DNA of 43,235 bases. Source: Clostridia bacterium. Lineage in GTDB: Bacteria > Bacillota > Clostridia > Oscillospirales > CAG-272. The first letter of the stretch is position 1, and the number at the start of each line of letters is the position of its first letter. The notes under the pieces were generated by a model, which was not told where the DNA came from, made no database searches, and was given only the letters and a program-made list of their open reading frames with translations. Below are positions 3,957-43,235 of this stretch, piece by piece. The stretch covers positions 1 to 43,235 of the forward strand of contig JAFYOX010000081.1 of the NCBI GenBank assembly GCA_017547755.1, read 5' to 3'. Position numbers and translations under genes: made by a program.

Positions 3957-4024
3957 AATGGAGTTTCCGGGGGAAAACTTTTTAAAAAAAGTTTTCCCCC
4001 GGACCCCTTTTCAAAAATTTTTAA
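3957..4024. repeat. R2 palindromic repeat, copy 2
   Basis: A long near-perfect palindrome (CCGGGGGAAAACTTTTT / AAAAAGTTTTCCCCCGG) lies directly after the phosphodiesterase stop codon, followed by the R2 border ACCCCTTTTCAAAAATTTTTAAAC. Position and shape suggest it also works as a terminator. Confidence 0.85.
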
Positions 4025-4059
4025 ACAAAAAAGAGGGACAAAGTTTGTGCAGAGCGGAG

Positions 4060-4290
4060 AAAAACAAAGGAAAGCACGGACGGCGGCATAGCCAGGCCGT
4101 GCGGATGCTGACTTGCCGTAGCTGAATTCTACATTTCGCACGATATCAAGGTTATCCCATACGGCGTGGGAAGTCAGGGTCTCGGTGGTCCCTGACTTCC
4201 GTCTCCACTACTCCATAGAATTTGGATCGCACCCACTTTGTCAGCTGGGATATACAAAATGTCAGCGCACAAATCCAATCCTCCCCAGTC
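4060..4290 (+). repeat. R3 repeat, copy a
   Basis: This ~230-bp element matches 34600-34860 (inverted) and 34860-35095. Shared landmarks are a GCACGGACGGCGG...GCCGTGC hairpin, GGATGCTGAC, GGTTATCCCATACGGCGTGG, the hairpin GGAAGTCAGGG...CCCTGACTTCC, and a right end GTCAGCGCACAAATCCAA. It has no credible ORF. Confidence 0.8.
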
Positions 4291-6384: not shown

Positions 6385-6389
6385 AAAAC

Positions 6390-6641
6390 ATGGGTTCTGC
6401 GGGGAGAAACTTTTTGAAAAAAGTTTCTCCCCGCACCCTACTTCAAAAACTTTCAAACGAAAAAGTCAGACAAAGAAAATGCAGATTTGAAGTTATAAAA
6501 CGGCAGTACGGTGTACGGACGTTTTACAAGTTCAAATCTGCACTTTCTCTGTTATCCCCCTCTTTTCAAAAGGTTTTGAAGAAGGGGTTCGGGGAAGGAA
6601 CTTTTCCTCAAAAAGTTCCTTTCCCGATTCATTATTTTCAA
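6390..6641. repeat. composite palindrome of two inverted R2 repeats (copies 4 and 5)
   Basis: R2-4 (6390-6462) and R2-5 (6566-6641) are in opposite orientation. Between them is an inverted repeat, AGAAAATGCAGATTTGAA (about 6474) against TTCAAATCTGCACTTTCT (about 6532), with extra pairing of ATAAAACG/CGTTTTAC. The whole interval between the convergent pnuC and synthase genes is therefore one large palindrome, able to terminate both transcripts. Confidence 0.85.
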
Positions 6642-8203: not shown

Positions 8204-8760
8204 ACGCCTTCGGCGCGGAAGGTGGAAAAACGACCTGGCGGTCGTTTTTCTTGGATTTATGCCACTGCGCGTGGCAGGCGCATAAGAGGTCTCCGGCGCG
8301 AGACCTCTTATGAATCTCCCGCGCTGGAGACCCAAAGGGTCTCCGGAAGCCCTTCGGGCGGATTATCATCGTTCAGTTGTGGGGTGGAGAATACGAACGG
8401 GACTTTTATACCGTCCGTATGGGAAGTTGATTCTGGCTGACCGCCGGGGGCTAAGGGTGGCGGTTACCGCTGTATCTGAAGGCGACCTTCACCGCTGTTT
8501 ATACTGAACGTGCGATTTGGACAGCTCTGCACCCGACTTCGTAACTTCCAAACGGTCTGCCGCATGAAAACCGCTGTCTGTCCGAGCGCTCAAGCGCGAG
8601 TCACCCGTGCGCACGGGGTATCCAAAGGGGTGTCCCCTTTGGTCGGGGTGATTCACAAGAGGGCATCGACATGCCCTCTTGTGCGCCGCCCCGCGCAGGG
8701 GCATTATTCAAGAAAAACGACCGCAGGGAGTTTTTCCACCTTCCGCGGCGAAGCCGCGCC
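8204..8760 (+). repeat. R1 element, copy b (complete)
   Basis: This copy shows the full layout. The left end has hairpin ACGCC-TTCG-GCG, then GGAAGGTGGAAAAACGACC with its partner GGTCGTTTTTC, CCACTGCGCGTGG, and CATAAGAGGTC...GACCTCTTATG. Next come GGAGACCC-AAA-GGGTCTCC, AGCCCTTCGGGC and a conserved core (GAATACGAACGGGAC...CCGTCCGTATGGG, CTGGCTGACCGCCGGGGG). The right end mirrors the left and finishes with GCGGC-GAA-GCCGC, 6 bp from the mnmE stop codon. The two ends are inverted repeats of about 100 bp. Confidence 0.9.
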
Positions 8761-10164: not shown

Positions 10165-10236
10165 AATTTATTTTTGCGGGGAAAAACTTTTTTCAAAAAG
10201 TTTTTCCCCGCACCCCTTTTCAAAAACTTTTAAACG
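10165..10236. repeat. R2 palindromic repeat, copy 6
   Basis: GCGGGGAAAAACTTTTTT / AAAAAGTTTTTCCCCGC plus the border ACCCCTTTTCAAAAACTTTTAAACG. It lies in the mnmE 5' leader between its promoter and start codon, so it cannot be a simple terminator there without blocking mnmE. Confidence 0.85.
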
Positions 10237-10297
10237 TAGGAATATATAAAGTATGGTGCAGAATTATTGGAATAAAAACATAGGCAACTATTGTTTT

Positions 10298-10397: not shown

Positions 10398-10464
10398 ATA
10401 AAGTTTTTTGGAAAAGGGTTCGGGGAAAACCTTTTTGCAAAAAGGTTTTCCCCGATTCTTTTTT
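10398..10464. repeat. R2 palindromic repeat, copy 7 (probable jag terminator)
   Basis: Border AAAGTTTTTTGGAAAAGGG followed by the palindrome TCGGGGAAAACCTTTTT / AAAAAGGTTTTCCCCGA, 2 bp from the jag stop codon. On the minus strand it reads as stem-loop plus T-rich tract. Confidence 0.85.
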
Positions 10465-10466
10465 CA

Positions 10467-12461
10467 TCAGTCTTCGATTTCCACGAAACGGTCGTTTTCT
10501 TCGACGGTGCCGGAAGCGAGGAAGTCCGGAAGCTTTTCGATGGGCATCTTCTGGATCTTCTTCGGACGGCGGTTTTCGTTTCTGCGGTTTCCGGAACCGG
10601 CGGATCCGCCGGTTCTGGATTCCTGCTTGTTTTCGCGCTTGTCACCGCGTTCTTCCTTTTCACGGCGGGGCTGCTGCGGTGCCTTGTCGGGACCTTCGTA
10701 GGTGATGATGATCTTGCGGTTCTTGTCCGCGCCTACGCTGTGGGTCGATACGTTTTCAAAGCTGTGCAGTTCGCTGTGGATGATGCGGCGTTCGTATGCG
10801 TTCATGGGTTCGAGGAAGACGTTTCTCTTGTACTTGACTGCACGGGCTGCCATGCGGCGTGCGAGGGAACGGAGGGTTTCTTCGCGCTTTGCACGGTAGT
10901 TTTCGATGTCGACCACGATCTTCACGTAGTCGCCGCCCTTCTGCTTGGACTGGCGGAGTGCCGCGAGATTTACAAGATACTGTACCGCGTCGAGGGTTTC
11001 GCCGTGGTGACCGATCAGGATGCCGGTGCCGTCGCCGTCGATGTTGATCTTCGGGTAGACGTTCGCGTCGCCTTCGATGACGTATTCCTCGCCTTCGGGG
11101 CATTCCACGCGGCTTGCGGTCGCGCCGATCGCCATGTTCTTCAGGAGCGTGTTGGTGAAGTCGAGTGCATACTGCATTTCCGCTTCGGTCACGCCGACCT
11201 TCAGACGGTCTTCTTCAACTGCGGGAGCTTCGGATGCTTCGCTTTCCGCGGATTCCGCGATTTCTGCGGATTCGGCAACGGACAGTTCGGTGAGAACTTC
11301 CGCGATCTCTTCGTTCGCGTCAAGCGCGGGAAGGACTGCTTCTTCGATCTCGGGACGTACTTCCTTGTATTCCTTGGCTTCCTTGATGTTTTCCGCGATC
11401 TGTTCGGGCTGGATCGCCTGCTTCGGATGACGCGGCTTCTTGCGGATGTCGTTGCTCATGCGTCCGCCGGAAGAAGATTCGCTGCCGAACGAGGAAGCGT
11501 TTTCTTCACGGGTAAAATCGGTGAGACCCATCGGCGCGGAGATGATCGCTTCTGCACCCGGAACTGCATCTGCGGCTGCGGACTTCGGCGTCTTCTGTCT
11601 GCGCTGGGGCTTTGCCTGATTGCGGAGGCTGGACTTGTATTCGGTCTTTGCCGGTTCCGCTGCGGTTTCCACCGGGATTTCCGCGGTCACCGGTTCTGCC
11701 GGCTTGGATTCCTTCGGTTCTTTCGGTTCCTTGGGCATCTTGGGTTCCTTGGGTTCCTTGGGTTCCTTCGGCATCTTCGGTTCTGCGGGCTTTTCTGCCT
11801 TTGCTTCGGGCTTGGGCTGACGTTCCGGCTTGGGTTCCGCGGACTTTTTCGGTTCTGCGGCAGCCTTGGGTTCCTGCTTGACTTCCGGCTTGGGTTCTGC
11901 CGGCTTCTGCGGTTTTGCTTCGGACTTCGGCTGACCTTCCGCCTTCGGTTTCTGTACCTGCGGCTTCTTTGCTTCCTGCGGCTTGTCCTTTTTCGGTTCC
12001 GCGGGCTTTTCCGCCGGTTTTGCCTGCTGAGGCTTTGCTTCTGCCTTCGGCTGTGCGGGCTTCTGCGCGTTCTGCTTCGGAGTCTGACCGTTCTGCGCCT
12101 GCTTTTCGGCGGGCTTCTTCTGACCCTGCTGACCCTGCTGCGGAGCGTTCGGCTTCTTCTGGTTCGGAGCGGACTGCTTCTTCGGCTTTTCTTCGCCTTC
12201 GCTGCCGCCGCGGTTGGTGTGTACCTTCATGCCGCGCAGGTCTGCGACGAGGGAGCTGAGCTCGGAACCGATCTTGCTGGATTCGGATTCGGAAACGGTG
12301 ATCTTGATCTTCGCGTCACGCGCGCCGATGCCGAGGAAGCCCTTCTTGGGCATTTCGAGAATTTCGTAGGTGACTTCCTTGCCGTCCTTGGCGTATTCGC
12401 GGTTTGCGATCGCGATCGCCTCTTCGACGGTTTTGGCCATAATGAGATAAGTTTCGTTCAT
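10467..12461 (-). CDS. jag: Jag/KhpB family RNA-binding protein (SpoIIIJ-associated) with a long linker
   Basis: The 664-aa protein has the Jag order: an N-terminal Jag_N domain (residues ~1-55, with KTVEEAIAIANREY and PKKGFLGIG), a KH domain (about 420-505, GILIGHHGETLDAVQYLVN) and an R3H domain (about 510-570, ERRIIHSELH, then THSVG). It binds RNA and works near the YidC insertase; in relatives it affects cell division and competence. Most family members are 200-300 aa. Here a ~330-residue Lys/Pro/Glu/Ala-rich disordered linker, with runs of Lys-Glu-Pro, separates Jag_N from KH, and the tail is Arg/Glu/Gly-rich. The start at 12461 fits the domain; a GTG at 12482 is possible. No clear ribosome site. 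Confidence 0.93.
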   Translation of the reverse strand: MNETYLIMAKTVEEAIAIANREYAKDGKEVTYEILEMPKKGFLGIGARDAKIKITVSESESSKIGSELSSLVADLRGMKVHTNRGGSEGEEKPKKQSAPNQKKPNAPQQGQQGQKKPAEKQAQNGQTPKQNAQKPAQPKAEAKPQQAKPAEKPAEPKKDKPQEAKKPQVQKPKAEGQPKSEAKPQKPAEPKPEVKQEPKAAAEPKKSAEPKPERQPKPEAKAEKPAEPKMPKEPKEPKEPKMPKEPKEPKESKPAEPVTAEIPVETAAEPAKTEYKSSLRNQAKPQRRQKTPKSAAADAVPGAEAIISAPMGLTDFTREENASSFGSESSSGGRMSNDIRKKPRHPKQAIQPEQIAENIKEAKEYKEVRPEIEEAVLPALDANEEIAEVLTELSVAESAEIAESAESEASEAPAVEEDRLKVGVTEAEMQYALDFTNTLLKNMAIGATASRVECPEGEEYVIEGDANVYPKINIDGDGTGILIGHHGETLDAVQYLVNLAALRQSKQKGGDYVKIVVDIENYRAKREETLRSLARRMAARAVKYKRNVFLEPMNAYERRIIHSELHSFENVSTHSVGADKNRKIIITYEGPDKAPQQPRREKEERGDKRENKQESRTGGSAGSGNRRNENRRPKKIQKMPIEKLPDFLASGTVEENDRFVEIED

Positions 12462-13662: not shown

Positions 13663-13685
13663 GTGGTTCTCCAAGGGAATGGTGT

Positions 13686-13748
13686 TTCTCGGGGAAAACT
13701 TTTTGAAAAAAGTTTTTCCCCGAACCCCTTTTCAAAAACTTTCAGACA
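13686..13748. repeat. R2 palindromic repeat, copy 8
   Basis: CTCGGGGAAAACTTTTT / AAAAAGTTTTTCCCCGA with border ACCCCTTTTCAAAAACTTTCAGAC. It lies inside the rpmH-jag cluster, between yidD and yidC, so it may cause partial termination or act in mRNA processing. Confidence 0.85.
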
Positions 13749-13809
13749 AATATAATCATAAAGTTTGTCCGAAATCGTTCGGGGTAACGGGTTTACAAAC
13801 GGTTTCAGC

Positions 13810-14947: not shown

Positions 14948-14977
14948 ATTATACAACAATCCTGCGGGGGTTGTCAA
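14948..14977 (-). promoter_or_regulatory. SigA promoter of rpmH
   Basis: On the minus strand a perfect TTGACA and a perfect TATAAT are separated by 18 bp, about 75 bp upstream of the rpmH start codon. Confidence 0.88.
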
Positions 14978-15055
14978 GAGATTTCGGGAATTTTATTCAC
15001 AATATTTTTGTGTTTTTTCTTAAATATAAAGGAAGGGCGCGACTGTATAAAGAAA

Positions 15056-15615
15056 GGGCGCGACTGCGTCGCGGAAGGAAGAAAAACGACCTGGCGGTCG
15101 TTTTTCCGGATTAATGTCCCTGCGCGGGACGGGCGCCTAAGAGGATCGGTCGCGATCCTCTTAGGAATCTCCACGACCAAAGGGGACACCCCTTTGGATA
15201 CCCCGTGCGCACGGGTGACTCGCGCTTGAGCGCTCGGACAGACAGCGGTTTTCACGCGGCAGATTTTTCGGAAGTGACAGAGTTGGGTGCAGATCTGTCC
15301 AAGACGCACGTTCAGTAGAAACAGCGGTGAAGGGTATCCTTCAGATAAAGCAGTAAACGCCACCCTCAGCCCCCGGCGGTCAGCCAAAATCTTCTTCCCA
15401 TACGGACGGCATATCCGTCTCGTTCGTATTCTCCACCTTACAACAGAACGATAACAATCCGCCCGAAGGGCTTCCGGAGACCCACAGGGTCTCCCATAGC
15501 CGGCAATTCACAAAGGGGCGGCGCCTGAGCCCCTTTGTGCGCCGTCCGCGCAGGACATTAATCCAAGAAAAACGACCGCCAGGTCGTTTTTCCACCTTCC
15601 ACGCCGAAGGCGTGC
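15056..15615 (-). repeat. R1 element, copy c (complete), between rpmH and dnaA
   Basis: This is a complete inverted copy of R1, bounded by hairpins GCGAC-TGC-GTCGC and ACGCC-GAA-GGCGT. It contains the same module series in reverse order (CCAAAGGGGACACCCCTTTGG, the core with CCATACGGACGG, GGAGACCC-ACA-GGGTCTCC and CACAAAGGGGC...GCCCCTTTGTG). It fills most of the rpmH-dnaA gap, the site where other Firmicutes keep the upstream (incA/B) DnaA boxes, and ends 16 bp before the dnaA -35 box. No gene is credible in 14978-15630. Confidence 0.9.
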
Positions 15616-27106: not shown

Positions 27107-27116
27107 TTTTTGGATC

Positions 27117-27182
27117 ATTTCTTGGGGAAACCCTTTTTGCAAAAAGGGTTTCCCCAAACCCCTTCCCAAAAATCTTCAGACA
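27117..27182. repeat. R2 palindromic repeat, copy 10
   Basis: TTGGGGAAACCCTTTTT / AAAAAGGGTTTCCCCAA with border ACCCCTTCCCAAAAATCTTCAGAC. Lies just after the lipoprotein stop codon; the arms differ from other copies but remain perfectly paired. Confidence 0.85.
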
Positions 27183-27255
27183 AAGGAATTGATAAAGTAC
27201 GGCTGAAAATTTTTGGAAAGGGGATATCGAACTCCGAAGGAAGGGAGGTTGCTTT

Positions 27256-28806: not shown

Positions 28807-31800
28807 ATGAAGAAACTGTTCAGCGTCCTGCTCGCGGCCGTTCTTGCGGCAGGTACCATGGTTCTTCCGACCGCAGCGGCGGACGGCGATATCGTCTATC
28901 TTCAGACATTTGACGATGTAGCTTCCTATGATGACCTCGGCTGGGAGATCGTCGAAACCCTTACCACCAACACCTCCACCTACACCATCGAAAACGGTGC
29001 TCTCACCGTTGACAACCTCGGCGGCAACGACTCCTATACCGTTGTTGTTCCGGCATCCGTGATGGACGAAGTCAACGAAGGCGACTATACCGTCGGCTAC
29101 GACTTTACCCTTCTCGAATCCGGTGACACCGCACGTTACCTCGCAATGCTCCTCAATTATGACCGTGAAGTGGGCAACACCTACAACTCCCTCCACATGC
29201 GTATGAAGGGTTATGCTGACTGGCAGAACCGTTTCGTAGGTACATGGAGCTCCAACATGGACACCGCCGGCGGTTATCAGGGCCTCCCGCTCTTTACCGA
29301 CCAGACCGCTGACAATTCCATCTCCGCACGTCTCTTCGGTCTCCCGTTCGATGCGGCACAGAACGTTATCGCAGGCAAGACCATCCGTTACGAAATGCGC
29401 GTATCCAACAGCGGCGGATACGTTGAAGTTTACATGAACGGCGTTCTGATCTCCGGTACCGACGAAGCCGGCTGGGATCAGTTCACCTGGGCATCCGAAG
29501 ACTACTCCGAAATCTGCCTCAAGTCCGGCGGTTCCATCCTCGGTACCGTTGACAACATCGTTGTTGCAAAGGGCCTCGGCATTCCGGAAGGCACCATTCC
29601 CGCAATGGGCGGCGCATCTGCGTCCGGTCTCCCGGCAACCGAATATGACTCCATCGCCAACTACGCAGGCATCAAGCCCGTGATCGACGGTAAGATCGAT
29701 GCGATCTGGGACGCAACCGCGGCTCAGGAATCCACCTGGCCCGGCGACCGTGACGGCGAAGGCATCTCCGGTTACACCAAGATCCTCTGGGACGAAGATT
29801 ATCTCTACCTCCTCGGCGTTGTAAATGACCCCACCACGCTTCAGGAAGCAAACCCCACCACCACCGACTCCATCGACTTCTGGATCTCCGAAACCTATTC
29901 CGATGACATGGGTTATCCGAATGCAGGGGACTATCAGGTAACTCTCAGCCCGTACGACACGCTCGGCGGCTACTACATCGGCAACGAAAAGGCTCCCGAA
30001 TCCGTTGCGGAACATGCAGCGGTTATCAACGGCGACGGCACTTACGTTCTTGAAATCGTAATGCCGTGGATGGATCCCGAATTCAAGCCCGAAGCAGGCA
30101 AGGTATTCGGCTACAACGCATCCTTCAATAATGACATCGACGGCGACGGCGCCCGTGACTCCTGGACTTCCTGGGTAGAATGGAACGGCATGCCCTACTG
30201 GTCTGACTGCATGTGGCTCAACCAGGTAGAACTCGTCAAGGCAGACGTTGCTGTAGCAGCTGACGAAGCTCCCGCAGCGGAAGCACCGGCAGCAGAAGCA
30301 GCAGCTCCCGCAGCAGATGCAGGTCTCCCGGCAGCATACCCGGCATCCGGAACCGCAATTCCGGACGGCTCCGTTCTCATCGCAGGTGAACTCATCGGTT
30401 CCGAAAACGGCTGGGACGGCACTGCAGGCTCCGGCCGTGCATCCGCATTCGACGGCAACATCGAAACCTTCTTCGACCCCGCAACCGCATCCGTTGACTA
30501 CTGCGGTATCGACGCAGGCGAAGAAATGATCCTCACCAAGATCATGATCCACCCCAGAACCACCTTCCTTGACAGATTCAACGGTGCTACCATCGAAGCA
30601 TCCAACGATCCGGAATTCGAAGAATCCGTAGAACTCTTCTTCAGCGTTGAACAGGCAGCAGAAGTTGCATTCGTAGACTGCACCGCTGAAATGGAAACCG
30701 CTGAAAACACCGGTTACCGTTACTTCCGTTACATCAACTACATGAGCCACGGCGACGTAGCCGAAGTTGAACTTTACGGTTACGCAAAGGACGGCTCCAA
30801 TCCGACTTACGGCGCAGCAGAAGCACCGGCAGCAGAAGCTCCCGCGGCTGAAGCAGCTCCCGCAGCGGCTGAATTTGTAACCTACACCGCATATCCGGAA
30901 ATGACCGGCGAAGAACTCGTATACGCGACCGGTGACATGGACATGATGTCCGGTTACGACGCAAAGGGCGGTATCGGCGTTGACCTGTTCAACCTCGCTT
31001 CCGGCGGTACTTCCTACTGCCTCAAGAGAGATACCTCCGCATGGTACGATTTCGAAGTTGCTGAAAAGACCGACGTAACCTTCTATGTAGGCTACATCGC
31101 ACGTGACGGCTCCAACCGTGGTCTCGACTATGCGGTTGACGGCGGCGCACGTATCTTCATGGACCTTGTTGAAAGCGCAGAACAGCAGTGGGTATCCGCT
31201 ACCTTCACCGTTGACGCAGGCAAGCACTCCTTCTACCTCTACGCTCCGACCGGTATGGATGACAGCACTCTGAAGTCCTGTGACATCTACACCATCGAAC
31301 TCTACGGTACTCCCGCAGCAGCTGCTGCTGAAGAAGCTTCCGCGGCAGGCTGGATCACCAGGGATGTCATTTCCAAGTACGATGAAGCTCCCGACTGGTA
31401 CGTGGAAGACGACGCAGTCGAACTGGAAGTATGGGATATGGGCGATACCAACGCCAACAGCAGTGCGACCGGCGCGGACGGTATATATCCCTCCGGTTAT
31501 GTATTCCTGAAGGCAAAGGGGCTCGGCAATTTTGAAGTTCCGTTCGACGTCAGCGAATCCGGCAACTACAACATCGGTTTTGTTCTCATGGCATGGAAGA
31601 AGTCCGTTCCGCGTTCCACCATGTTCTCCGTGGACGGCGCTGAACCGATCTATGTATGCTACGACTATGCGGACGAAGATCAGTATTCCGAACAGTTCCT
31701 GACCGGTCCGACGATGTATCTCGAAAAGGGCGAACACACCCTGACTCTCGCTCTGGCAGACGATTTCGACGACAGCACTGTGAAGTCCCTGTACTTCGAT

Positions 31801-32133
31801 AAGTTCATTTATGCTCCGGCGGCAGACGATTCCGCGGCAGAAGCAGAAGCGGCGGCAAAGGCAGAAGCAGAAGCTCAGGCAGCGGCAGAAGCGGCGGCAA
31901 AGGCAGAAGCAGAAGCTCAGGCGGCGGCAGAAGCAGCGGCAAAGGCAGAAGCAGAAGCTCAGGCGGCGGCAGAAGCGGCAAAGGCAGAAGCAGAAGCTCA
32001 GGCAGCGGCAGAAGCGGCTGAAAAGGCAGCAGAAGTTGTTGAAGAAGCTCCTCAGACCTTCGACTTCGGCGTGATCGCAGCGATCTCCGCACTCGTATCT
32101 CTCGCAGGCTTCAGCCTCACCAAGAAGAGATAA
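28807..32133 (+). CDS. large secreted multi-module carbohydrate-binding-like surface protein
   Basis: The 1108-aa protein has a signal peptide (MKKLFSVLLAAVLAAGTMVL, cleavage near TAAA-DG). A beta-sandwich follows (about 25-265, LamG/concanavalin-like). Next is a CBM9/DOMON-like module (about 280-477, KPVIDGKIDAIWD, then YLLGVVNDPT) and a discoidin (F5/8 type C)-like module (about 512-661). Two further CBM6/35-like sandwiches (about 692-833 and 847-1003) follow, joined by Ala/Pro/Glu linkers. A 14-residue Ala/Glu/Lys/Gln repeat precedes a C-terminal PQTFD motif, one hydrophobic helix and KKR. No catalytic module is apparent, so it is probably a polysaccharide-binding or scaffold protein held on the cell surface. 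AAAAGGAG precedes the start; codon use suggests high expression. Module names are by pattern only. Confidence 0.8.
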   Translation: MKKLFSVLLAAVLAAGTMVLPTAAADGDIVYLQTFDDVASYDDLGWEIVETLTTNTSTYTIENGALTVDNLGGNDSYTVVVPASVMDEVNEGDYTVGYDFTLLESGDTARYLAMLLNYDREVGNTYNSLHMRMKGYADWQNRFVGTWSSNMDTAGGYQGLPLFTDQTADNSISARLFGLPFDAAQNVIAGKTIRYEMRVSNSGGYVEVYMNGVLISGTDEAGWDQFTWASEDYSEICLKSGGSILGTVDNIVVAKGLGIPEGTIPAMGGASASGLPATEYDSIANYAGIKPVIDGKIDAIWDATAAQESTWPGDRDGEGISGYTKILWDEDYLYLLGVVNDPTTLQEANPTTTDSIDFWISETYSDDMGYPNAGDYQVTLSPYDTLGGYYIGNEKAPESVAEHAAVINGDGTYVLEIVMPWMDPEFKPEAGKVFGYNASFNNDIDGDGARDSWTSWVEWNGMPYWSDCMWLNQVELVKADVAVAADEAPAAEAPAAEAAAPAADAGLPAAYPASGTAIPDGSVLIAGELIGSENGWDGTAGSGRASAFDGNIETFFDPATASVDYCGIDAGEEMILTKIMIHPRTTFLDRFNGATIEASNDPEFEESVELFFSVEQAAEVAFVDCTAEMETAENTGYRYFRYINYMSHGDVAEVELYGYAKDGSNPTYGAAEAPAAEAPAAEAAPAAAEFVTYTAYPEMTGEELVYATGDMDMMSGYDAKGGIGVDLFNLASGGTSYCLKRDTSAWYDFEVAEKTDVTFYVGYIARDGSNRGLDYAVDGGARIFMDLVESAEQQWVSATFTVDAGKHSFYLYAPTGMDDSTLKSCDIYTIELYGTPAAAAAEEASAAGWITRDVISKYDEAPDWYVEDDAVELEVWDMGDTNANSSATGADGIYPSGYVFLKAKGLGNFEVPFDVSESGNYNIGFVLMAWKKSVPRSTMFSVDGAEPIYVCYDYADEDQYSEQFLTGPTMYLEKGEHTLTLALADDFDDSTVKSLYFDKFIYAPAADDSAAEAEAAAKAEAEAQAAAEAAAKAEAEAQAAAEAAAKAEAEAQAAAEAAKAEAEAQAAAEAAEKAAEVVEEAPQTFDFGVIAAISALVSLAGFSLTKKR
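31837..32034 (+). repeat. in-frame tandem repeat, about 42-bp unit
   Basis: Four to five units encode KAEAEAQAAAEAAA. One unit is 39 bp, lacking one Ala codon, so repeats vary by whole codons. Predicted product is a long Ala/Glu/Lys alpha-helix or stalk placed before the membrane anchor. Copies are nearly identical in DNA, so length is likely to vary by slippage. Confidence 0.9.
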
Positions 32134-33319: not shown

Positions 33320-33330
33320 ATTTGATTTGA

Positions 33331-33560
33331 CGCGGCTTCGCCGCGGAAGGAAGAAAACCGCCGGAAGGCGGTTTTCTGGATTAATGCCACTGCGCGTGGC
33401 AGGCTGCATAATGGAGTTTCACTTCGTGAACCTCCGGGCTCAGGCGCCGCCCCTTTGTGAATACCGGCTGGGAGACCCGCAGGGTCTCCGAAGGCACTGC
33501 GTGCCGGGGTAGGAGTGACGTACTGTCAGAAAAATAACGCTGCTCTCAGCCCTGCAGAGG
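33331..33560 (+). repeat. R1 element, copy d (short, second subtype)
   Basis: It starts with hairpin GCGGC-TTC-GCCGC and the stem GAAAACCGCC/GGCGGTTTTC, then CCACTGCGCGTGG, GGTTCACGAAGTGAAAC-type and GGAGACCC-GCA-GGGTCTCC. After GGCACTGCGTGCC it diverges from the b/c/e/h core into a different tail (GTACTGTCAGAAAAATAACGC...CAGCCC) shared with copy g. It fills the 275 bp between the oxidoreductase and esterase genes. Confidence 0.85.
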
Positions 33561-34483: not shown

Positions 34484-35190
34484 TCTTGAGGGGAACCTTT
34501 TCAGAGGAAAGGTTCCCCCGCGACTTTCTCCGAAAGTCGCAGAAACTCCCTTCCAAACCTCTTTAGGCTGTTACAGCCGGTTTGTGTATTGCAAATTTGA
34601 GGTTTGGAGGGGGTTTTTATTGGGTTTGTGCGTAGCCATATAGTTCGTCCCAGCTGACAAAATGGGAGCGATCCTGATTCTGAGAAAGGGTATAGACGGA
34701 AGTCAGGGGCCACCGAGACCCTGACTTCCCACGCCGGTTTTTGAAGCGGTGATATTGTGCAATCGATTGAAATCCTTCTACATTTTATCAGCATCCGCAC
34801 TCCTTGGCTGCCGCCGTTCGTGCTTTGTGATAGTGCGAACGATACGTCAGCCTTCCAAACGAACGAAAAGCGCGGACGGCGGTATAGCCAAGCCGCGCGG
34901 ATGCTGACGTATCCGTAGAAGAATTTCTATATTCCGCACGAAATCCCGGTTATCCCATACGGCGTGGGAAATCAGGGTCTCGGCGGCCCCTGATTTCCGT
35001 CTCCACCCTTCCTTAGGCTTTGGATCGCTCCACCCCTGTCGGCTGGGAAATCCTATATGTCAGCGTACAAACCCATAAAAAAATCCCCTCCAACCTCAAA
35101 TCTGCACAGACACATCGATCTGTAACCGTATAAAGAGGTTTGGAAGGGAGTTTGAGGGAAACCTTTCCTCTGAAAAGGTTTCCCTCAAGA
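34484..35190. repeat. ~700-bp composite palindrome: R2-11, R3c (inverted), R3b, R2-12 (inverted)
   Basis: The left arm starts CTTGAGGGGAACCTTTTCAGAGG, continues AACTCCCTTCCAAACCTCTTT, then R3 in minus orientation (34600-34860). The right arm has R3 in plus orientation (34860-35095) and ends with the reverse complement of the same R2 border (CCTTTCCTCTGAAAAGG). Arms are roughly 350 bp. It fills the entire 746-bp space between the convergent esterase and permease genes; no ORF is credible. Confidence 0.85.
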
Positions 35191-36762: not shown

Positions 36763-36833
36763 TGAAAGTTTTTGAAAAGGGGTACGGGGAAAAACTTTTT
36801 GAAAAAAGTTTTTCCCCGCAAAACTCCATTTTC
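36763..36833. repeat. R2 palindromic repeat, copy 13
   Basis: Border TGAAAGTTTTTGAAAAGGGG then ACGGGGAAAAACTTTTT / AAAAAGTTTTTCCCCGC, directly after the stop codon of the leftward RACo-like gene, where it can act as its terminator. Confidence 0.85.
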
Positions 36834-38732
36834 TTAAAACATCATTCCGCCGACGAAGGCATCCGTGAAGCCCTTGTCGGACGAGAGTTCCGTGTAGCGT
36901 GCGTTTTCCATGATGATGCGGAGGTTTTCGCGCACCTTTTCGTCGAACAGGTACGCCGCCGCACCGGCGAGGGAGGTGTTGCCCGCCGCCTGTACGATAC
37001 CGCGCCGGACGCACGATTTCGGGAGGATCCCGATCTCTGCCGCCGAATTGACGTCGATGCCGCCGCCGAACGAACCCGCGAGATATACCGCGTCAAGGTC
37101 GTCCGCCGTGATGCCCGCCGTACGCAGGAGAACTTCGATCCCCGCGGAGATCGCCGCTTTCGCCGTCTGGACGGCGCGGATGTCACGGCCCGTCAGCTTT
37201 ACGTTTTCCGTGAAATAGATGCAGTCGTCGTCTTCGTCCGCGCAGTTTACGAGGGCTTCGAACAGGTCTTCGTCGTATTCGCGCGCTTCTGCATCGTCGA
37301 ACATATCCGCATAATCCTGCAGTTCCTCGAAATCCGTGCAGATCGAGCCGGTCGGCGCGATCAGACCCGCACACACCGCCGCCGCCGCCGCATCGATGAT
37401 GCCGCTGCCGCAGATGCCGACGGCTTCGCCGTTTCCGACAACGCTGACGTCGAATCCGCCGTTTTCCGCGTTCGCGCGGACTTTGCAGACCGCGCCGGGC
37501 GTTGCGCTCATGCCCATTTCGATTTCCGCACCTTCCAGAGCCGGACCTGCCGCCGTTGCCGCGAAGTAGTATTTTCCGTCCGCGATCACGCACAGCTCGC
37601 CGTTGGTGCCGAGGTCAAGGAACAGGGCGTTTCTGTCTTTGATTTCCGGATGTTTTTCGAGGATGTATGCCAGTCCTGCGGTGATATCCCCGCCGACATA
37701 GGACGCCGCGAGCGGTGCGAGGCAGACCAGACCGTCCGCGTTCATGAAGGTATCCGCGCCGCAGAGCGGATCGTGCGCGCGCATTTCCCAGCCGAATTTT
37801 GTCTGCATAAAGAAGGGAGAAACTGCAATCGGTGCGGTGTCAAGACCCGCGTACAGGTGTTCCATGACGGAATTTCCGGCGATCGAGGTGAAGAGGATGT
37901 CGTTTTTGTCAATGCCCGCACGGCGGCAGAGCGCATCCGCGTGTTCCGCAATGGCGGTGCGGATGGAGTTTTTCAGGATCTCCGCGTCACCCGATGCCGC
38001 GTGGGACATCCGGGAGATGACATCGCCGCCGAAGCTGCGCTGAGGATTGCCGAACACGTCGCCGGCGAGTTCCGCGCCGGTTTGCAGATCACGCAGGGAG
38101 AGGGCAACGGTCGTCGTACCGATATCGGCGGCGAGGAATGCGTACGGACGCATTTCCGTGACCGCGTCGATCACGCGCTTGCCGCAGACGAGGGCGGTGA
38201 AGTCCGTTTTTCCCTGAGCAAGTGCCGCGGAAACGCGGCAGACGGCGGAGAAGGGGATGTCCGCGTCGGAAATACCGAGTGCGGAGCGGAGATTTTCGAG
38301 GGTATCGATGGGATTTTCAAGGGTCGGCAGGGTCAGCGTGACGGCTTTTGCGGTCACGACGGGAGAGACTGCCGCGACGGTTTCGCTGAACACCGCGCCG
38401 GTGAGTTCGTCCGAACCGGGGAGATAGACGTCCGTAATGCCGTCCGCGGGACAGAGGCAGAGATAGCGGAGCACGGCATCCGCGCGTTTGTCCGCGGGAA
38501 CGCCGCAGCGGTCCAGGCAGGCGTCACGGTCGATGCCGGCGAGGAACGCGGTTTCGGCGGGAGTGGGCGTACTGTCTCCGAGGACGGCGCAGATGCATTT
38601 GCCGCATTTGCCGTGACCGCCGCAGGGGGTATGCGGGGTTACGCCGGGGACGGCGGAGACGAGGTCAAAGAGGGTACGGGTGTTTTCTCCTGTGGAGAGA
38701 GGGTAGGTTTTCTGCGAAGCGTGAAGGAACAT
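36834..38732 (-). CDS. RACo-like ATP-dependent reductive activator ([2Fe-2S] ferredoxin + ASKHA, DUF4445)
   Basis: The 632-aa protein fits the reductive activators of corrinoid enzymes. The N-terminal ~105 residues form a ferredoxin domain: CGGHGKCGKCICAVLG, then YLCLCPADGI, giving the four Cys ligands of a [2Fe-2S] cluster. A middle domain leads into the actin/Hsp70-like ATPase: FLAADIGTTTVALSLRDL (phosphate 1), NPQRSFGGDVISRM, FLDLGTNGELCVIADG (phosphate 2) and YLAGSFGGGID. Such proteins use ATP hydrolysis to push an electron onto Co(II) of a methyltransferase or corrinoid protein. No corrinoid protein or methyltransferase is nearby. GGAGG lies 7 nt before the ATG; R1 copy e begins 24 bp upstream. 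Confidence 0.9.
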   Translation of the reverse strand: MFLHASQKTYPLSTGENTRTLFDLVSAVPGVTPHTPCGGHGKCGKCICAVLGDSTPTPAETAFLAGIDRDACLDRCGVPADKRADAVLRYLCLCPADGITDVYLPGSDELTGAVFSETVAAVSPVVTAKAVTLTLPTLENPIDTLENLRSALGISDADIPFSAVCRVSAALAQGKTDFTALVCGKRVIDAVTEMRPYAFLAADIGTTTVALSLRDLQTGAELAGDVFGNPQRSFGGDVISRMSHAASGDAEILKNSIRTAIAEHADALCRRAGIDKNDILFTSIAGNSVMEHLYAGLDTAPIAVSPFFMQTKFGWEMRAHDPLCGADTFMNADGLVCLAPLAASYVGGDITAGLAYILEKHPEIKDRNALFLDLGTNGELCVIADGKYYFAATAAGPALEGAEIEMGMSATPGAVCKVRANAENGGFDVSVVGNGEAVGICGSGIIDAAAAAVCAGLIAPTGSICTDFEELQDYADMFDDAEAREYDEDLFEALVNCADEDDDCIYFTENVKLTGRDIRAVQTAKAAISAGIEVLLRTAGITADDLDAVYLAGSFGGGIDVNSAAEIGILPKSCVRRGIVQAAGNTSLAGAAAYLFDEKVRENLRIIMENARYTELSSDKGFTDAFVGGMMF

Positions 38733-38756: not shown

Positions 38757-39372
38757 GCACCCTTCGGGTGCAAGGTGGAAAAACTCCCTGCGGTCGTTTT
38801 TCTTGAATAATGCGCCTGCGCGGCGCAGGCTGCATAATGGAGTTTCACTTCGTGAACCTCCGGGCTCAGGCGCCGCCCCTTTATGAATACCGGCTGGGAG
38901 ACCCTGTGGGTCTCCGGAAGCCCTTCGGGCGGGTTGTTTATTTCAGTTATGGGGTAGAGAATACGAACGGGACGGATGTGCCGTCCGTATGGGAAGTTGA
39001 TTCTGGCTGACCGCCGGGGGTTAAGGGTGGCGTTTGCCGCTTTATCTGAAGGTGAATCTGAAGGAGAATCTGAAGATACCCTTCACCGCTGTTTCTACTG
39101 AACGTGCGATTTGGACAGCTCTGCACCCAACCTTGTCACTTCCGAACGGTCTGCCGCATGAAAACCGCTGTCTGTCCGAGGCTCAAAGGCCGAGTCTCCC
39201 GAACATCGGGGTATCCAAAGGGGTGTCCCCTTTGGTCGGGATGATTCACAAGAGGGCATCGACATGCCCTCTTGTGCGCCGTCCGCGCAGGACAAAGAAA
39301 AAATTTGCAGATACAAAATTTAATAAGTGCGCCGTCCGCTTGCGGACATCTGCCGCTGTCCGCGCAGGACAG
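38757..39372 (+). repeat. R1 element, copy e (complete, with a doubled right end)
   Basis: It opens with GCACCC-TTC-GGGTGC, then the stem pair GAAAAACTCCC...GGTCGTTTTTC (mismatched here), CGCCTGCGCGGCG, GGAGACCC-TGT-GGGTCTCC, AGCCCTTCGGGC and the conserved core. GAATCTGAAG is duplicated (39053-39078). The right part shows CTCAAAGGCCGAG, CCAAAGGGGTGTCCCCTTTGG and CAAGAGGGC...GCCCTCTTG. After GCGCCGTCCGCGCAGGAC a further GTGCGCCGTCCGCTTGCGGAC...CGCGCAGGAC segment ends 4 bp from the metA stop codon. Confidence 0.88.
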
Positions 39373-40355: not shown

Positions 40356-40628
40356 GTCCGACCTGCGGTCGGGAAGGATGAAAAATGACCGTTGGTCATT
40401 TTTCTTGGATTAATGTCCTGCGCGGCGCAGGCTGCATAATGGAGTTTCACTTCGTGAACCTCCGGTCTCCGGCGCGAGACCTCTTATGAATCACCCGCGC
40501 TGGGAGACCCTGTGGGTCTCCGGAAGCCCTTCGGGCGGGTTGTTTATTTCAGTTTTGGGGTAGAGAATACGAACGGGACGGATGTGCCGTCCGTATGGGA
40601 AGTTGATTCTGGCTGACCGCCGGGGACT
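40356..40628 (+). repeat. R1 element, copy f (left half only)
   Basis: It starts GTCCGACC-TGC-GGTCGGGA, then AAAAATGACC-GTT-GGTCATTTTT, CCTGCGCGG, GGTCTCCGGCGCGAGACC, GGAGACCC-TGT-GGGTCTCC and the core up to CTGGCTGACCGCCGGGG. There it breaks off and R5-type sequence follows. It starts 53 bp upstream of the metA start codon. Confidence 0.88.
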
Positions 40629-41618: not shown

Positions 41619-42024
41619 GGAAGGAAGAAAAACGCCTGAAGGCGTTTTTCAATTTTATGCCACTGCGCGTGGCGGGCTGCATAATGGAGTTTCACTTCGT
41701 GAACCTCCGGGCTCAGGCGCCGCCCCCTTATGAATACCGGCTGGGAGACCCGTTGGGTCTCCGGGGGCACTGCGTGCCGAAAATTGGACTGACGTACTGT
41801 CAACAAAATAACGCTATTTTCAGCCCCCGCGGTCAGCAATAATAAAAAACGTACGATTTCAGCCGTACAAAATGTCTGTACGGGGTATCCAGAGGGGTGT
41901 CCCCTCTGGTCGGGGAGATTCACAAGAGGGCGACGACTCGTCCTCTTGTGCGCCCGCCGCGCAGGCGATTAATTGAAAATCGACCCGAAGGGTCGTTTTT
42001 CCACCATCCCGACGCAGTCGGGCA
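41619..42024 (+). repeat. R1 element, copy g (second subtype, both ends present)
   Basis: The left end has AAAAACGCC-TGAA-GGCGTTTTT, CCACTGCGCGTGG, GGAGACCC-GTT-GGGTCTCC and GGCACTGCGTGCC, then the shorter subtype-2 core GACGTACTGTCAACAAAATAACGC. The right end has CCAGAGGGGTGTCCCCTCTGG (one A:T pair changed to G:C against other copies), CAAGAGGGCGACGACTCGTCCTCTTG as a variant hairpin, and the final CCCGAC-GCA-GTCGGG. About 400 bp in total. Confidence 0.88.
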
Positions 42025-42816: not shown

Positions 42817-43235
42817 GGCGCGACTTCGTCGCGGAAGGTAGAAAAACTCCCTGCGGTCGTTTTTCTTGGATTAATGTCCTGCGCGGACGGCGCACAAAGG
42901 GGCTCAGGCGCCGCCCCTTTGTGAATTGCCGGCTGGGAGACCCGGAAGGGTCTCCGGAAGCCCTTCGGGCGGATTGTTATCGTTCAGTTGTGGGGTAGAG
43001 AATACGACAAGCCGAACGTACCGTCCGTATGGGAAGTTGATTCTGGCTGACCGCCGGGGGTTGGGGGTGACGTTTACCGCTTTATCTGAAGACAACCTCC
43101 ACCGCTGTTTCTACTGAACGTATGTTTTGGACAGATTTGCACCCGACTTCGTAACTTCCGAGCGGTCTGCCGCATGAAAACCGCTGTCTGTCCGAGCGCT
43201 CAAGCGCGAGTCACACAAACGTCGGGGTATCCAAA
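42817..43235 (+). repeat. R1 element, copy h (left part, cut by the window end)
   Basis: It begins GCGAC-TTC-GTCGC, then GTCCTGCGCGGAC, CACAAAGGGGC...GCCCCTTTGTG, GGAGACCC-GGAA-GGGTCTCC, AGCCCTTCGGGC, the conserved core and CTCAAGCGCGAG. It stops at AACGTCGGGGTATCCAAA, a string also present at the window start (about 19-36). Confidence 0.88.

Follow-up and report, generated by a model that had tools for sequence, protein, structure and literature searches.

What is a structured sequence of about 560 nt that recurs between the genes of a gut Clostridia bacterium, and why does it stand where it does? We addressed this question in the window, by which we mean the whole 43,235-nt stretch that was analysed. 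The window is the whole of one contig (C75) in an assembly of 3.05 Mb and 117 contigs that is 74.8% complete (genome G000), and it carries mnmE, yidC, dnaA, dnaN and gyrA.

A composite repeat between genes

An earlier note on this DNA had described eight copies or parts of an intergenic element with inverted ends, and self-comparison of the window recovered a repeat at all eight places. Two copies, 2 and 3, are complete and run in opposite directions, as inverted matches of 202 nt (87%) and 162 nt (86%) show, and the two ends of copy 3 are inverted to each other over 74 nt (77%), in agreement with that description. Copies outside the window, on which the earlier note had made its proposal depend, proved abundant in the genome and in the genus. 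Copy 2 has at least 92 BLAST matches in its own genome (40 of 65 candidates scored; self and opposite-arm matches counted), and a search with an arm covariance model (R1) gave 76 matches at E ≤ 1e-3, which merging of opposite-strand overlaps and pairs reduces to 68 distinct arms and about 45 elements. The density stressed earlier, eight in 43 kb, holds for the window but is not typical of the genome, with its roughly 45 elements in 3.05 Mb. Arm matches are clustered: 31 of the 76 lie within 150 of 3046 kb (contigs C75, C10 and C23). One SIG618 contig joins orthologs of both C75, which has dnaA, and C10, so C10 is probably also near the origin.

No credible protein is encoded, as had been claimed. 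Twelve ORFs of at least 120 aa overlap copies, 11 of which overlap or extend neighbouring called genes; the single ORF overlapping none is at 14974-15387. The 10 ORFs that are not called genes had no Pfam match at E ≤ 0.01. The element is an intergenic, non-coding composite repeat family.

Its architecture consists of two inverted arms that read outward and flank a species-specific core of about 150-380 nt. Most ends begin with a short hairpin at the very terminus, followed inward by a terminator-type A5/T5 hairpin and by the arm. Read outward, from core to end, the arm runs through a short strand, GGNGATTC, hairpin H4, GCGCC and hairpin H3 (loop CGCGYAG), and the loop of H4 pairs with the leading strand ahead of H4 as a pseudoknot. 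Among two-armed elements of the sampled loci, the core measures 206-380 nt in G000 (25 elements), 175-211 nt in SIG618 (28) and 150-217 nt in RGIG1778 (20). Single arms were found at a further 12, 11 and 9 places, respectively, some of them at locus ends.

Copy 2 (8204-8760, + strand), established from its sequence, self-comparison and BLAST, displays each of these parts. On the left, a terminal hairpin (CGCC-TTC-GGCG, 8205-8215; read from the sequence and folded) is followed by the A5/T5 hairpin with an 11-bp stem (8225-8250; 8204-8256 folds at -22.2 kcal/mol) and by the left arm, comprising pseudoknot strand, H4 and H3 (8257-8325, - strand, outward being leftward; R1 match of 67.4 bits), which folds with z -4.4 against shuffles (8257-8328). 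The core spans 8326-8640, and its right-hand domain (8487-8606) also occurs in SIG618. The right arm (8641-8706, + strand; R1 match of 82.7 bits, with covariation) starts with the pseudoknot strand at 8641-8645, then GGTGATTC to 8654, H4 at 8654-8683, GCGCC, and H3 at 8688-8702 with loop CGCGCAG; its fold has z -6.5 against shuffles (8636-8705), and the predicted fold draws an alternative outer pairing. An imperfect A5/T5 hairpin (8712-8736) and a terminal hairpin (8744-8758), both from sequence and fold, close the element.

Copy 3 (15056-15615, - strand) is the reversed complete copy, with arms at 15112-15178 (-) and 15496-15561 (+), and lies upstream of dnaA, whose product was identified with NCBIfam. 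All other copies were assigned to the + strand. The contig start cuts copy 1 (1-186), a right half whose arm is at 51-115 (+; R1 match and self-comparison), and the contig end cuts copy 8 (42817-43235), which retains its left arm (42871-42936, -) and core. Copy 5 (38757-39372) has arms at 38808-38898 (-) and 39234-39298 (+), and its right end is without the standard terminal module; the truncated copy 6 (40356-40628), consisting of a left arm and the start of a core, has 127 nt in common with it at 99%. Copies 4 and 7 have the same arm kind and a different, alternative core. Copy 4 (33331-33560) has the left arm only and was found with nhmmer (33330-33465), being absent from the R1 list at E ≤ 1e-3, and copy 7 (41619-42024) has two arms, at 41655-41745 (-) and 41908-41972 (+).

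The arms are conserved as structure

We aligned 33 arms, obtained by clustering 164 unique arms at below 84% identity. Across this alignment, 91.6% of cells were paired, and the covariation score was 0.609 as against at most 0.117 for slid structures. The pseudoknot helix had changes on both sides in all five of its pairs, with 74.8% of cells paired. The earlier note had quoted a stem in the core instead; in copy 2 this stem folds more convincingly from the - strand (z -3.9) than from the + strand, where its fold is modest (z -1.5), and the best-supported conserved structure is that of the arms.

Mismatches within the stems point to the strand that is read. Among 195 unique arms read outward and collected with a pattern neutral to G-U and A-C, the degenerate outer positions held 11 G-U and no A-C, the first three inner positions held 43 G-U or U-G and no A-C, and the fourth inner position, which is mostly loop, held 10 A-C or C-A and no G-U. 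We also split 77 oriented two-armed elements by side, leaving out four that could not be oriented; 58 of the left and 67 of the right halves had a recognisable arm. Read outward, the H4 stem had 11 G-U and no A-C in the left arm and 16 and none in the right, with three other mismatches. Since G-U and never A-C occurs in both arms, each arm seems to be under selection as a single strand in its outward reading. Such a wobble bias fits RNA and may also fit single-stranded DNA, in which G-T wobble is tolerated as well. Covariation and the G-U bias suggest a structured RNA, one of the earlier readings, for the arms but not for the cores.

These observations bear on the possibility that the copies are dispersed genes for structured RNAs, each RNA beginning in the core, crossing the arm in the outward direction and ending at the terminator hairpin, either alone or with a divergent partner. 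The covarying arms with their pseudoknot and the outward wobble bias in both arms would be expected of such genes. Some one-armed units combine a core with an arm and a terminator hairpin, and unique full-length copies of core domain 8487-8606 number 27 in G000 and 37 in SIG618. The same domain covaries little, however (2 of 18 pairs), and has no full-length match in RGIG1778. When whole halves were folded in tiles, those of G000 favoured the reverse strand (left halves in 23 of 24 copies, right halves in 20 of 24), opposite to outward, and those of SIG618 leaned the same way less clearly (23/33 and 26/33); only in RGIG1778 was the preference outward (15/20 and 16/20). An outward polarity of whole halves is therefore unsupported. 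Copy 2 contains no promoter-like site. A search of the window and 18 loci against Rfam, which the earlier note had proposed, returned only tRNAs at gathering thresholds; a permissive search gave six matches up to E 10, the best at E 0.4, all under threshold. We regard RNA genes of this kind as rather doubtful. UUCG tetraloops in the outer hairpins were considered as an argument for RNA and dropped, as the count of C(TTCG)G loops was 0.

Elements stand near gene ends

We examined the placement of 125 elements in sampled loci of G000, SIG618, RGIG1778 and Agathobaculum, with genes called by a simple codon-usage caller. A called gene lay within 900 nt on both sides of 89 elements; 34 of the remainder were at locus edges and two had distant genes. 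The 89 gaps were tandem in 63 cases, convergent in 14 and divergent in 12. Elements lie close behind genes, at a median of 31 nt from a neighbour's 3' end (n = 91), as compared with 104 nt from a neighbour's 5' end (n = 87).

Terminator-like hairpins, by a criterion of our own that allows the T-run to pair within the stem, were present at 131 of 176 outer element ends. In three species, 87 gene 3' ends faced an element: the first such hairpin behind the gene belonged to the element in 61 cases and preceded it in 11, and 15 gene ends had none within 220 nt. Gene ends in element-free gaps had a hairpin of their own in 50 of 70 cases. Element ends facing 3' ends carried a terminator-like hairpin in 70 of 87 cases, only slightly more often than those facing 5' ends (61 of 89; p = 0.085), which counts against a boundary role. 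A consensus terminator scan of copy 2 gave no hit; the T-run there is paired inside the stem. Copy 2 itself lies between the end of mnmE and the promoter-like site of the next gene (TTGACA-17-TATACT, 11/12 matches), which is just outside the element.

These data fit best with a giant REPIN/MITE-like repeat that is kept as a bidirectional transcription boundary, a reading to which we give a probability of about one half. A non-autonomous element of REPIN or MITE type would have spread within each lineage. Its ends, with their predicted hairpins, could stop transcription both ways, so copies landing just behind stop codons may have replaced the gene's own terminator and would have been retained there as boundaries between transcription units. 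The likeness of copies within a species would come from recombination among them or from renewed insertion. Mobility, termination and the homogenising agent are the parts of this account that we infer. Taken together, two suggestions of the earlier note, a non-autonomous element and terminators at its two ends, agree with these observations. Elements in divergent gaps (12 of 89) count against a boundary, because no terminator is needed there.

One-armed copies were oriented without evident regard to the flanking gene: 19 had the same direction and 14 the opposite (p = 0.49), and 15 were in convergent or divergent gaps. We therefore rejected the idea that single arms follow the gene beside them, and the result makes it less likely that they act within the mRNA of the neighbour.

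The window contains a second repeat family, of GGGGAAAAACTTTTT...AAAAAGTTTTTCCCC terminator hairpins that stand alone and have a tail in common (3957-4029, 6389-6461, 10166-10238, 10405-10475, 13678-13750, 27112-27184 and 36769-36839). Six of the seven are in gaps free of the element; the hairpin at 13678-13750 is in a called gap that also contains copy 3, about 1.3 kb apart.

Positions are conserved and cores change in concert

Orthologous places were collected regardless of elements, starting from 61 gaps of G000 that measured 100 nt or more, 24 of them with an element. The syntenic gap was located for 38 of the 61 in SIG618 and for 42 in RGIG1778. In SIG618 an element was present at 8 of 14 element gaps and 2 of 24 controls (p = 0.0019), and in RGIG1778 at 12 of 19 and 0 of 23 (p = 4.6e-6). 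A looser test, with loci partly chosen for elements, gave 9/15 versus 2/24 and 12/19 versus 0/23. In an earlier comparison, a flanking gene was found in common with SIG618 elements in 21 of 37 cases and both flanks in 9 of 37, as against 8/26 and 2/26 for control gaps, a weak control taken from gaps near elements.

Within a species the cores are alike (identity 0.83-0.87), and between species (0.66-0.71) they approach the level of shuffles (0.65), as measured on the first 14 elements in each of three species with 130 nt trimmed off each end. Cores at the same place were no more alike than other cross-species pairs in either of two comparisons (0.720 versus 0.723, from 7 pairs, and 0.691 versus 0.695, from 6 pairs). 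Either the copies stay put and are homogenised, or each lineage's own family re-occupies the same places.

One possibility is that boundary elements were inherited vertically, homogenised by gene conversion and long immobile. Conserved positions and homogenised cores would follow from it, and tracts shared between copies exceeded all 100 permutations in each of three species, a signal that uneven rates confound and that we set aside. The gap between pflB and pflA is occupied by an element with both arms in G000 and in Agathobaculum G425, and by a single arm in A. desmolans. SIG618 and RGIG1778, both nearer relatives of G000 than Agathobaculum, have no element there, however, so the case does not show continuous inheritance. 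Moreover, elements were absent from the other species at 6 of 14 (SIG618) and 7 of 19 (RGIG1778) syntenic gaps, where the intergenic DNA is too diverged for a footprint, and outer ends at the same place were only slightly and not significantly more alike (p = 0.07 and 0.21). Long immobility with gene conversion therefore seems unlikely to us.

It is possible, and we suggest it tentatively, that the family is a dispersed multicopy structured RNA or boundary element with fixed places between species and a set rewritten in concert in each species, similar to rDNA but scattered, with an arm motif that extends across families of one order. To our knowledge, it is unusual in bacteria that non-coding repeats so large, numerous and structurally complex tend to stay at their places across species and yet evolve together. 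Such a family would lend itself to testing how selfish repeats turn into transcription boundaries, and to the study of concerted evolution beyond rRNA operons.

Relation to known repeats

REPINs are about 100 bp long, REP and BIME sequences are smaller than this element, and REPs are more conserved within one genome than its arms. The earlier note had held that the element exceeds REP/BIME sequences; this is so for size, but its layout, an inverted doublet with a spacer, is that of REPINs. According to the REPIN study (PMC3116915), a REPIN is an inverted doublet of a structured unit with a spacer, present in many intergenic copies as doublets and singlets, as is the element here, and a RAYT is the driver proposed. 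The element differs in its length of about 560 bp, in its arms, which are pseudoknotted double hairpins with terminator-type hairpins mostly outside them and which vary by compensatory change within a genome, and in the lack of any link to a RAYT that we could see.

If the element were a true REPIN, a RAYT (Y1_Tnp) would move it by way of single-stranded DNA. The intergenic doublet with its spacer agrees with this, and the wobble bias may fit hairpins of single-stranded DNA. The one Y1_Tnp (RAYT-like) gene of G000 (locus L172, contig C89) is flanked by its own palindrome, GTAGGGGCGATTCACGAATCGCCC, which contains GGGGCGATTCAC, close to GGGGTGATTCAC of the arm. Nevertheless, no arm was found in the 3.3-kb locus of this gene. 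Among genomes of the genus, in assemblies 66-94% complete, Y1_Tnp was found in 5 of 12 arm-rich (at least 24 matches) and 3 of 13 arm-poor genomes, and in neither of the two arm-richest. The arms within one genome are also far more divergent than REPs are. A RAYT as driver is unsupported, since Y1_Tnp does not track the arms and the G000 gene is flanked by a different palindrome, and we consider a true REPIN quite improbable. Because the link to a RAYT was tested and not found, we class the element as a structured intergenic inverted-doublet repeat and not as a REPIN. The RAYT-like gene's flank in L172 and the R1 arms have GGGGYGATTCAC in common, perhaps by chance.

Bacterial MITEs are short, non-coding, multicopy sequences with inverted ends and an interior that differs between families. 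The element resembles them in its terminal inverted repeats, non-coding nature and many copies, but its outermost hairpins vary in sequence and no autonomous partner was found in G000: among the R1 matches of this 75%-complete assembly, no outward arm pair stood at a gene-wide distance of 0.8-4 kb. One arm pair at such a distance occurs in Agathobaculum G425 (contig C27; L215 15-1280, and L203), where an IS110-family transposase gene separates the core from the left arm, apparently as an insertion into the repeat.

Bidirectional intrinsic terminators share the A-tract/T-tract hairpins that occur near stop codons at most outer ends of the element. Here, in contrast, the hairpins cap a composite of 0.5 kb whose inner arms are conserved also in Agathobaculum, where the copies examined had no T-run hairpin adjoining the arm. 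Stem-loop repeat families of bacteria are likewise intergenic, structured and repeated, and the sections consulted of a survey of 40 genomes, most of medical interest by its own account, present no comparable composite (PMC2267715). Our search of the open-access literature found no description of this repeat.

Another repeat in the window, of about 120-150 nt and 81-82% alike, has GTCAGGG...CCCTGAC hairpins (4127-4277, 34925-35075 and, inverted, 34619-34736), and low-complexity direct repeats at 31810-32047 lie inside a long called gene (28807-32133).

Distribution

Arms were found in 16 of 25 genomes of the genus (E ≤ 1e-5; 2 to 104 matches each), in 20 of 394 genomes of the order (E ≤ 1e-4) and in 2 of 398 genomes of the phylum (E ≤ 1e-5), one of which is G000. 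Searches with copy 2 of 50,697 phage and 72,556 plasmid records, and of viral contigs with the exact arm pattern, returned nothing. A scan of named genomes with a DNA pattern of the arm gave, among the matches listed, ruminant-gut assemblies (goat, sheep, buffalo and others) and three Agathobaculum species, including A. desmolans ATCC 43058. The latter has 12 arm matches, 10 of which form five inverted pairs about 300 nt apart, around cores that look different by eye. It is an isolate genome, which argues against a binning artefact, and as a cultured gut isolate that bears related arms it makes the element amenable to study.

Weakly related arms, with GGGGATTC, a stem and then another long hairpin, occur in other genera and families of the order at 2 to 9 matches per genome (L183, L184, L188, L189 and L191). 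A contig labelled Methanocorpusculum (L106), probably mis-binned, carries an arm resembling the SIG618 type.
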